From the NCBI RefSeq assembly GCF_030646255.1, contig NZ_JAUSNF010000041.1:1-42332 (forward strand): a stretch of DNA of 42,332 nt. Reading direction: 5' to 3'. The notes under the pieces were generated by a model. That model had not been told where the DNA came from and made no database searches. It was given only the letters and a program-made list of their open reading frames with translations. Each line of letters starts with the position of its first letter. Position 1 is the stretch's first letter. Position numbers and translations under genes: made by a program. The DNA comes from Candidatus Burarchaeum sp. Lineage in GTDB: Archaea; Micrarchaeota; Micrarchaeia; Burarchaeales; Burarchaeaceae. Below are positions 1 through 5,243 of the stretch, one piece after another.

Positions 1-825
1 ACAAAAGAAGATATAAAAATAAAGTCAACGGCGTTGCTTAACGAGTTCACGAGCCCCAGCATCCCCTTAGTTCACAATGGAGCTCGTGATATTCTGTCGC
101 GGGTCGCAGCAGCTTACGCATGTTTAACACACTCTGTTGAGAAAGGCAACGTCGTCATAACACCCGAGCATGTCTTTCTCGCTGATGACTTTCTCAGAAG
201 AGTTTATGAGCATCTTGAACTTTCTGAATACCGTAAGTATATAGGTGAGGCTGACCCCTTTGACTCTACAGATGCGCTGAGCGAAGTCATGCAAAAGCTT
301 GAGCCGTCAGATTGGACTCTTCTCAAAGCGGTCTCTATAAAGCCCAAGGCCTCAGCTGAACTCGCGGAACTATTAAATGAGTCGGAAAGAACAGTGCGAA
401 CACGCTATGGAAAATTAAAAGCACTTGGCGTTCTGAAGAGCGCGGAAGGCAGGGGCGGAGGAGTCGAATTAACCTCCAAAGGTGTGTCGCTTTTAAAAAA
501 TACAGCCTGCTTGGAAACTGGCAACTGTGCAAAAAAATGCACAGTTAAAGATGGACAATTAGGTAAAAATGGAGAAACTGTGCAAAAACCTGCACAGTTA
601 GGCGACTTTGATAATCTAACTGTGCAAAAAAATGCACAGTTGCCAGTTAGATTGGGCAACCATATTTTTTTGAAAGTGCGGATTTTGAAGCCTCTACCCG
701 CCTATTTGGGCTCGGATGGTAGGACTTACGGGCCATATAATGAAGGGCAAGAGGTTGAGATGCCCACTGTCGAAGCCCTAGCCGCGCAAGGACGCGGAGC
801 TGCGGAGGTGATTGCCGATGCCTAA
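1..825 (+). CDS. C-terminal part of a replicative-helicase-like protein with winged helix and GINS-B-like domain (5' partial)
   Basis: The frame is open to the first base, so this is the 3' part of a longer gene; the TTG at 34 is only an ORF-caller start. Visible order (counting from the window edge): a helical segment (about 15-80) with the look of the region after the AAA+ core of MCM-like helicases (IPLVHNGARDILSR, then EHVFLADDFL); a winged helix (about 105-165, ESERTVRTRYGKLKALGVL); a low-complexity linker encoding three DNA dyads; and a C-terminal module (about 222-270, LGSDGRTYGPYNEGQEVEMP) that resembles the small B domain of archaeal GINS. I infer a DNA replication protein of an integrated element. 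The helicase core is off-window, so the helicase call rests on the C-terminal pattern only; it could be another AAA+ or primase-helicase protein. The next gene overlaps its stop. Confidence 0.55.
   Translation, partial: TKEDIKIKSTALLNEFTSPSIPLVHNGARDILSRVAAAYACLTHSVEKGNVVITPEHVFLADDFLRRVYEHLELSEYRKYIGEADPFDSTDALSEVMQKLEPSDWTLLKAVSIKPKASAELAELLNESERTVRTRYGKLKALGVLKSAEGRGGGVELTSKGVSLLKNTACLETGNCAKKCTVKDGQLGKNGETVQKPAQLGDFDNLTVQKNAQLPVRLGNHIFLKVRILKPLPAYLGSDGRTYGPYNEGQEVEMPTVEALAAQGRGAAEVIADA
523..641. repeat. Three 24-bp inverted repeats (iteron/operator-like) inside the helicase-like gene
   Basis: Each unit is AACTGTGCA, a 6-nt A-rich spacer, then TGCACAGTT, at 523-546, 576-599 and 618-641. 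Arms are identical in all three; spacers are AAAAAA, AAAACC and AAAAAA. Centre-to-centre distances are 53 and 42 bp, close to five and four helical turns. Unit 1 is read as NCAKKCTV while units 2 and 3 are read in another frame as TVQK(P/N)AQL, so conservation is at DNA rather than protein level. Probable protein-binding sites: a replication origin or an autoregulatory operator. Confidence 0.85.
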
Positions 826-2897: not shown

Positions 2898-3860
2898 ATG
2901 AGCAAAAACCCACATAAGGAAACTGATTTGAGGCAACTCCGCGTTGCATACCCAGCCTTGGCCCCAGTCTTTGAGAACGACCCTGACCTTGCGGCCCTGT
3001 TCAAGGGCAGACACTTTGTCCTGAACATCTTTGATGGCGGTTCAATAGCAGCCAACTCAATCCTGAGTGCAAGCTCTGTATTGCTCGGACAGTCCGGCAG
3101 TGGAAAGACTAATGGTCTGGCCGCACTACTTGAGGAGCTTGCGAACGTGGGCGCATCGTTCAGCTGCATTGATAGTGAGGGCGACTTATACACAGTTGCG
3201 GACATCCTCAAGAGTGTGAAGGTGATTGAGGTCAAAAACGCATGGCATGAGGAGGACATCTATGCGCTGGCCCTGTCCACGATTCAGGGCATCGAGCGCA
3301 ACATATTCACCTTCACGGCAACGACCACGATAGAGGAGCGCAGGCGGTTCGTGCTGAACTATTCCAAGAGTCTGTTCGAGATAGCCGACGCACGATATAG
3401 GGAAGGCAAGGCCATGCCTCACCTGCTTGTTATTGATGAGGCGCACCTCTACGCTGCGCAGCAATACTCTTCAGCCGACAAGTGGATGCAGGAGCTGCTT
3501 TTCTTATTCGGCAATATTGCAAGCATGGGAAGGAAGCGAGGGCTCGGCTTGCTTATGGCAACCACCCGGGCAGCTAGGCTGAACAAAGACATACTCTCGC
3601 AAGTTCGCATGCGATGGCTTATGCGTGCCGTTGAGCCGGCGGACATCAAGAGCTACCGGGCCGCACTGAACTCAATTGACGACCCGAACGTGCAATGGAA
3701 TATCATAGCCTCAATCCCTACCCTGCCCATCGGCTGTGCTATTTTCGTGCCGGACGATGGACAGGGCAGGCCCATTAAGTTCAGGATGCGCTATTCTCGG
3801 CACATCAGTACAACGCCGACAATGGAGAACTATGAGAAATACGGAGAAAAGGAGGTGTAG
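2898..3860 (+). CDS. HerA/FtsK-type P-loop ATPase (DNA translocase)
   Basis: 320 aa after a GAGGGATAG ribosome site. Walker A is GQSGSGKT at residues 64-71, Walker B is HLLVIDEAH at 175-183, and a conserved SCIDSEGDL strand follows the P loop. The later segment (LLMATTRAARLNKDILSQ, then RAVEPADIKSY) matches the sensor and arginine region of the HerA-like family, in which LATQRP...LSKDVLSQ is usual. Members pump DNA: HerA in end resection, FtsK in segregation, A32-like ATPases in virion packaging, TraD-like in conjugation. It is shorter than chromosomal HerA and has no NurA partner nearby, so I favour a packaging or transfer ATPase of the element. The family call is firm, the role is inferred. 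Confidence 0.88.
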   Translation: MSKNPHKETDLRQLRVAYPALAPVFENDPDLAALFKGRHFVLNIFDGGSIAANSILSASSVLLGQSGSGKTNGLAALLEELANVGASFSCIDSEGDLYTVADILKSVKVIEVKNAWHEEDIYALALSTIQGIERNIFTFTATTTIEERRRFVLNYSKSLFEIADARYREGKAMPHLLVIDEAHLYAAQQYSSADKWMQELLFLFGNIASMGRKRGLGLLMATTRAARLNKDILSQVRMRWLMRAVEPADIKSYRAALNSIDDPNVQWNIIASIPTLPIGCAIFVPDDGQGRPIKFRMRYSRHISTTPTMENYEKYGEKEV

Positions 3861-4785: not shown

Positions 4786-4980
4786 TCATACTATGTTGAT
4801 TTTCGGCCGCAAAACAAGCTGGCCATCCCCATTAATAATCCACTCAAACTCCTGCCCCTCCCTGAACTGCCGTTGGTCGATTGTGCTGGTTGGAACGGTA
4901 ATGAAGTAAGCCCGTGCCTCTTTGCCATCCTCGCGCTTGTGCCTGGAGCACTGCAATTTGTAGGTCTTGCTCATAGGCAT
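4786..4980 (-). CDS. AbrB-like swapped-hairpin protein, copy A
   Basis: The track ORF starts at 5031, but a TATA-like GGTATTAAAG sits about 25 bp upstream of the ATG at 4980, and the region before it is not protein-like, so I use 4980 (64 aa); ATG 4974 is an alternative. The C-terminal part (AYFITVPTSTIDQRQFREGQEFEW, then GQLVLRPK) has the beta-strand and K/R-x-G-D/Q-E pattern of the AbrB/MazE DNA-binding fold. It resembles the product of the upstream gene (EGQEFEW and LVLRPKINIV against AGSEVVW and LLLKPKLSMV). Probably a small transcription regulator of the element. Confidence 0.6.
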   Translation of the reverse strand: MPMSKTYKLQCSRHKREDGKEARAYFITVPTSTIDQRQFREGQEFEWIINGDGQLVLRPKINIV

Positions 4981-5027
4981 AATCTTATTAGTAAGTGCTT
5001 TAATACCTCGGTTAAACAGGACTGGGC

Positions 5028-5243
5028 TCACCTACTCAGTTCATGGGATTGGACGGCACGGAGTAGCTTCTGAGGCATACGATTAACCATGCTGAGTTTC
5101 GGCTTTAGCAACAGGCTGCCCACATTATCGGGCTGCCAAACTACTTCCGAGCCTGCCTTGATGTTCTTAGCCTGTACTGCAGTGAGGATGCATAGAAAAA
5201 GCTGCCCGCATCCTTGCAGGCAACGCATGCCAAACAACGACAT
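5028..5243 (-). CDS. AbrB-like swapped-hairpin protein, copy B (diverged)
   Basis: 71 aa, 14 nt downstream of the 268-aa gene. The middle (ILTAVQAKNIKAGSEVVW, then SLLLKPKLSMV) aligns with the neighbouring AbrB-like protein and keeps the strand-loop-strand pattern, while the N-terminus (MRCLQGCGQLF) has two Cys instead of the basic segment seen there. This looks like a tandem duplication followed by divergence. A weak ribosome site before the ATG leaves the start uncertain. Confidence 0.5.
   Translation of the reverse strand: MSLFGMRCLQGCGQLFLCILTAVQAKNIKAGSEVVWQPDNVGSLLLKPKLSMVNRMPQKLLRAVQSHELSR

Follow-up and report, generated by a model that had tools for sequence, protein, structure and literature searches.

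The window analysed here is a stretch of 42,332 nucleotides from Candidatus Burarchaeum sp. (contig NZ_JAUSNF010000041.1), and it begins inside a gene that holds three copies of a dyad with identical arms, which raises the question of what these sites do within a coding sequence. A preliminary description of this DNA had proposed that they are origin iterons buried in a replication gene and bound by the encoded protein or by a small regulator of the element. How replication starts in mobile elements of DPANN archaea is essentially unknown, and MCM loading without Orc1/Cdc6 is an open question. From the comparisons below we consider it probable that the array (516-648) is the replication origin of a mobile element, or the initiator-binding core of that origin, placed inside the element's own MCM-like helicase gene, and that the element is integrated in or carried by a Micrarchaeota archaeon.

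Table 1. Features of the array and of the gene that carries it (window positions)
Feature	Position	Strand	Details
MCM-like replicative helicase gene, element-borne, 3' part	1-825	+	275 codons including the stop; truncated on the 5' side by the contig end
Winged-helix DNA-binding domain, residues ~90-167	268-501	+	HrcA_DNA-bdg above curated cut-off, E 9e-5
Disordered linker, residues 170-223, holding all three dyads	508-669	+	pLDDT ~25; repeat-richness; codon shuffles
Bracketing inverted repeat, left arm	516-531	+	AACTGGCAACTGTGCA; 16 bp
Dyad 1	523-546		AACTGTGCA-AAAAAA-TGCACAGTT
Dyad 2	576-599		AACTGTGCA-AAAACC-TGCACAGTT
Dyad 3	618-641		AACTGTGCA-AAAAAA-TGCACAGTT
Bracketing inverted repeat, right arm	633-648	+	TGCACAGTTGCCAGTT; 16 bp
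Gins51_C (GINS B) domain, residues 225-270	673-810	+	PF22090 E 1.5e-7, above curated cut-off

Three phased dyads form an array that is symmetric as a whole

As had been described, there are three dyads of the form AACTGTGCA-N6-TGCACAGTT, and all 18 arm positions are perfect. With up to 3 mismatches allowed, 0.03 such dyads are expected per shuffled window, and three were reached in none of 100 shuffles. The dyad centres lie at 534.5, 587.5 and 629.5; the spacings of 53 and 42 bp correspond to 5.05 and 4.0 turns (at 10.5 bp per turn), and we found that the proposed helical phasing is real. The earlier statement about reading frames was also right: in the open reading frame (1-825), dyad 1 starts in codon phase 0 and dyads 2 and 3 start in phase 2, and the three encode the peptides NCAKKCTV, TVQKPAQL and TVQKNAQL. 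Because the codon phase of dyad 1 differs from that of dyads 2 and 3, the protein sequence does not explain the dyads. The preliminary description had noted that occurrence of the dyad throughout the genome would speak against its interpretation; we found the dyad only at 523-641, with no further copy in the 1.21-Mb Micrarchaeota genome at 0 or up to 3 mismatches. The number of repeated 8-mers observed in the linker was matched by none of 2000 codon permutations, and when we scanned the whole 42-kb contig, the linker was the top-ranked 200-bp stretch for repeats.

The array is symmetric as a whole, beyond the single dyads, and this symmetry is new relative to the preliminary description. The two bracketing arms are perfect reverse complements that reach seven bases past the outer dyads, and such a 16-bp inverted repeat appeared in 0 of 200 codon shuffles and 0 of 200 dinucleotide shuffles. 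AT content peaks beside and within the array (73% in 531-570 and 70% in 661-690, against about 52% for this gene region); because this AT-rich flank is only modest, no clear unwinding element is evident.

The array lies in the linker of an MCM-like helicase

Since the window starts at base 1 of its contig, the open reading frame is the 3' end of a longer gene; the 5' end of this gene and the rest of the element are absent from the assembly. The encoded domains are, in order, an AAA+ lid-like helical part, a winged helix, a disordered linker and a Gins51_C (GINS B) domain. Two long frames are homologous to the window protein, one of 648 aa over residues 18-196 and one of 1029 aa over residues 6-166 (34% identity, E about 1e-26), and both contain an MCM P-loop domain. 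They come from a Micrarchaeota bin (G077, CAITNU010000046.1; P-loop E 4e-16) and from Candidatus Fermentimicrarchaeum limneticum Sv326 (G010, CP058998.1; P-loop E 3e-13), and the G010 homologue also has an N-terminal Prim-Pol domain. The window protein is assigned to the MCM family through this homology, its own P-loop region lying beyond the contig end; with the gene being that of an MCM-like helicase of the element, the claim that the dyads lie in a replication gene held up.

The winged helix sits directly upstream of the sites, where the preliminary description had placed it. In the AlphaFold model it has a pLDDT of about 65-85 and the order H-H-H-strand-strand-H; for the fragment as a whole the model is of low quality (mean pLDDT 52), and only its winged helix can be used. 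Profile matches are to Csa3, LrpA and ArsR-type regulators and Foldseek matches are weak (Csa3, MarR and CggR-DNA, only E 2e-3 to 1e-2), and on such weak fold matches the domain looks most like operator-binding regulators of the Csa3, LrpA or ArsR type.

The element is incomplete on this contig. GC content is lower in the first 7000 nucleotides of the window (0.48-0.53, mostly about 0.49) than over 7-28 kb (0.48-0.61), and this lower GC, together with the small element-like genes in the same region, suggests that the element spans roughly the first 4-6 kb. The proteins encoded there include two with DNA-binding domains, a winged helix (1985-2800) and a MazE-like domain (4786-5031). The HerA/FtsK-like ATPase encoded at 2898-3860 is also similar to a family of phage terminase large subunits (phrog_2666, E 1e-12), and from this similarity the element may be viral or may use a packaging or transfer ATPase.

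Diverged helicases carry different sites in the same place

When we searched the genomes of the phylum, we found the helicase in 4 of 301, the window's genome included. The three other Micrarchaeota proteins are about 30-37% identical to that of the window, so the family consists of four members that are all diverged (all below 40% identity); draft bins are the source of three of the four, and contig ends truncate the copies in the window and in G077. Each relative has its own repeat cluster in the linker behind the winged helix, built from the half-sites AACTGTAAAG (G077), ATAGTATCA (G010) and GAAGTATA (the fourth member, G196). In G077, we found a AACTGTAAAG-N5 dyad, GACTGTAAAGGAAAACTTTACAGTT, and 54 bp further on a second copy, within which the contig stops (L024:7126-7140); the array probably continues, and its remainder was not found on any contig of that bin. 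In G010, there are two full dyads, ATAGTATCA-AAAAA-TGATACTAT and TAGTATCA-N5-TGATACTA, plus separate half-sites, and all 9 occurrences of the octamer in 35 kb fall inside 482 bp. The linker of G196, on an 8.2-kb contig, holds a GAAGTATACTTC palindrome together with every one of the contig's five GAAGTATA/TATACTTC octamers; half-sites are present there with no significant excess of spaced full dyads. The G077 and G010 dyads are each unique within their own genome.

The linker ranks first among all 200-bp windows in each of the four contigs, and codon shuffles were as repetitive as the observed sequence in 0 (window), 1 (G077), 0 (G010) and 0 (G196) of 2000 trials. In the three complete linkers an inverted repeat of 16-30 nt brackets the array, that of G196 being 28 nt long and 86% complementary and that of G010 30 nt and 80%. 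Perfect dyads do not account for the long-range symmetry in G196, which lacks full spaced dyads. Helical phasing is partly kept: the 54-bp spacing in G077 is close to that in the window, and spacing in G010 is not regular, with 201 bp between the full dyads. The preliminary description had also named homologues that keep the peptide and lose the palindrome as a result that would count against it; we found that the homologues retain a site cluster in place while peptide and site sequence both differ. What persists is an arrangement and not a sequence: the helicase comes first, then the winged helix, then a disordered linker in which half-sites of 8-10 bp form a symmetric cluster. Such change of peptide and site sequence around a constant cluster is expected of sites that co-evolve with the DNA-binding domain encoded upstream. 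The window and G077 arrays have the core AACTGT in common and their proteins a GxGGG wing, which is a suggestive link between domain and site.

These comparisons bear on several other explanations. That the repeats are a chance product or a functionless local expansion is most improbable: disordered linkers tolerate repeats, but unrelated site sequences recur in the same place in four diverged genes and with dyad symmetry, the window copies occupy more than one reading frame, and the codon shuffles and the 200-bp repeat ranking already disfavour it. A mobile palindrome of the Rickettsia type was considered and rejected, as there are no copies elsewhere and the homologues have different sequences. 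The dyads might also work in the mRNA, as separate hairpins or as one large stem-loop, and the RNA fold z of -8.5 for 505-660 fits this; such a score is expected of any perfect DNA dyad, however, and folding is much weaker in G196 and G010 (DNA z -2.2 and -2.9), where half-site clusters and not strong hairpins are kept. We regard a role at the RNA level as having very little probability.

Sites for recombination or segregation could look similar. The res site of a Tn3-type resolvase consists of three dyad subsites, typically with 53 bp between the first two, and the window has three dyads with this first spacing; in G010, moreover, the truncated serine recombinase gene just downstream of the helicase (L025:12732-13007) holds one more TGATACTA half-site. 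The G196 and G010 clusters are not three-subsite arrays, and no PF00239 resolvase domain is found in the window's genome or in G196 (both assemblies incomplete), and a res site is therefore very unlikely. A centromere-like partition site, to which an adaptor protein would bind so that the element is segregated, is also quite improbable. Sites of the parS/parC kind typically contain clustered short repeats and TubR is among the weak fold matches of the winged helix, but no partition ATPase or TubZ/ParM-like gene was recognised beside the sites, and in all four members the cluster comes after helicase domains and not in a par operon.

An autoregulatory operator would need no origin at all: the helicase or a small element regulator would bind the dyads and repress or block transcription through the gene. 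The resemblance of the winged helix to those of transcription regulators and the DNA-binding proteins encoded nearby agree with this, but the sites are close to the gene's 3' end and a long way from its promoter, and we judge an operator unlikely. The helicase is, in addition, the only gene we found to be common to all four loci, which leaves a separate conserved regulator unsupported and indicates that the sites travel with the helicase. When a helicase comes joined to an origin-recognition domain and with a symmetric array of sites, the simplest explanation is a replication origin. Taken together, these data support the interpretation of the preliminary description, in which we infer both the origin role and binding by the encoded protein.

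The homologues also differ at their C-terminal ends. In G196, a zinc ribbon-like stretch takes the place of Gins51_C, so the GINS hook is not universal. In G010 (minus strand), a nine-G run between the site cluster and the part that encodes Gins51_C shifts the frame (L025:13190-13215); this run may be a sequencing or assembly error, a phase-variable tract, decay or a real break. The G010 helicase gene is flanked by a tyrosine integrase near tRNA-Pro and by the truncated serine recombinase. At about 628000-634000 of G010:C1, Prim-Pol, a zinc-finger-like stretch and MCM are found in one protein beside the tRNA-Pro integrase, and this region is an integrated replicative element in a Micrarchaeota chromosome that is recorded as complete.

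A possible route from sites to helicase loading

For the replication origin that we favour, the following steps can be proposed. In dimeric form, the winged helix of the helicase would bind to the 24-bp dyads along one face of the DNA helix, and the site cluster would seed assembly of the helicase on its own gene. The two-fold symmetry of the whole array would then allow two helicases to be loaded in opposite directions, and the C-terminal GINS B-domain could couple them to replisome proteins of the host. Placed in a disordered linker, the sites would be free to change, giving each element its own site sequence and replicon identity. What we observed are the sites, where they lie, the order of the domains, the bracketing symmetry and a cluster that is kept as its sequence changes; binding by this winged helix, origin activity, the loading mode and the role of Gins51_C are what we infer.

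Tentatively, and with more doubt than confidence, we extend this to a single DPANN-element polypeptide that combines origin recognition, an MCM helicase (with a primase in G010) and a GINS B-domain that hooks it to the replisome of the host. This polypeptide would load itself as two opposed helicases on the two-fold symmetric array in its own gene, and the array would co-evolve with the winged helix as a private origin code of each element. If true, archaea would have here an origin that works without an Orc1/Cdc6 loader. The family is a compact and testable system, with one protein, one 130-bp DNA and an element-specific site array, and it offers a rule for finding origins in other elements, which is to look in the linker behind the winged helix.

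Comparison with known replication systems

The preliminary description had compared the locus to lambda-type phages, and the comparison holds for the placement of sites inside the gene (PMC7466680) and fails for the protein, which is no O homologue. The iterons in the lambda O gene are 4-6 copies of 19 bp with inverted repeats (PMC7466680). Like ori-lambda, the window has dyad iterons with an A-rich centre in the initiator's own gene, here as 3 copies of 24 bp, and repeated sites inside the initiator gene are also found in the three homologues. The lambda O protein only recruits the host helicase, via P. In contrast, homology identifies the product of the window gene as an MCM-family helicase in its own right, which carries a winged helix of its own and a GINS B domain, and we saw no protein homology between the two.

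The Sulfolobus plasmids pRN1 and pRN2 (orf904) resemble this family in having a primase-helicase with a C-terminal winged helix, as in the Prim-Pol, MCM and winged helix of G010. The pRN1 origin is a large stem-loop next to the rep gene; it begins 54 bp beyond the gene and lacks iterons (PMC4234260). A large interrupted palindrome is found close to the 3' end of the rep gene in both systems, but here it is inside the gene and the sites are iteron-like. The pRN1 combination of AEP primase, SF3 helicase and winged helix also differs from what we found, in that the helicase here is MCM and Prim-Pol is seen in G010, the 5' end of the window gene being missing.

Proteins of the PrimPol-PV1 supergroup and MCM proteins of bacteriophages likewise join an AEP primase, an MCM or other ATPase and a C-terminal winged helix. 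C-terminal winged helices of primase/helicases from mobile elements have been proposed to recognise origins, and versions containing MCM are known (PMC5862659). In the phage relatives that we examined, however, there is no site cluster in the gene and no linker followed by Gins51_C. The GINS B-domain is a known C-terminal add-on of archaeal PriS (PMC2861644), whereas the mobile element described here has it fused downstream of an MCM-like helicase and a winged helix. This family brings these features together: intragenic sites, a C-terminal winged helix, MCM and a GINS B-domain. In the part of the literature that we covered, we found no description of an MCM-family gene with an origin inside it.

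Further relatives and other candidate origins

Scans of IMG/VR gave no match, whether the query was the window protein, any of three alignments, either of two homologues or the 24-mer itself, and GTDB contigs returned only the two homologues already seen. Looser winged-helix matches in Micrarchaeota were set aside as membrane or regulator proteins without site clusters. Plasmid and phage collections held only distant MCM/primase relatives, none with intragenic clusters; one distant homologue is the primase of Bacillus phage BSTP12 (25% identity over 71% of the query). In BSTP12, Microbacterium phage Sparcetus and Altiarchaeum virus, which are distant relatives in their MCM gene, the strongest repeats are outside the helicase gene. 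In Altiarchaeum virus and Sparcetus, the MCM/primase gene is preceded by strong repeat clusters (L037:1161-3140 and L038:1561-2260), and these are candidate origins with another placement.
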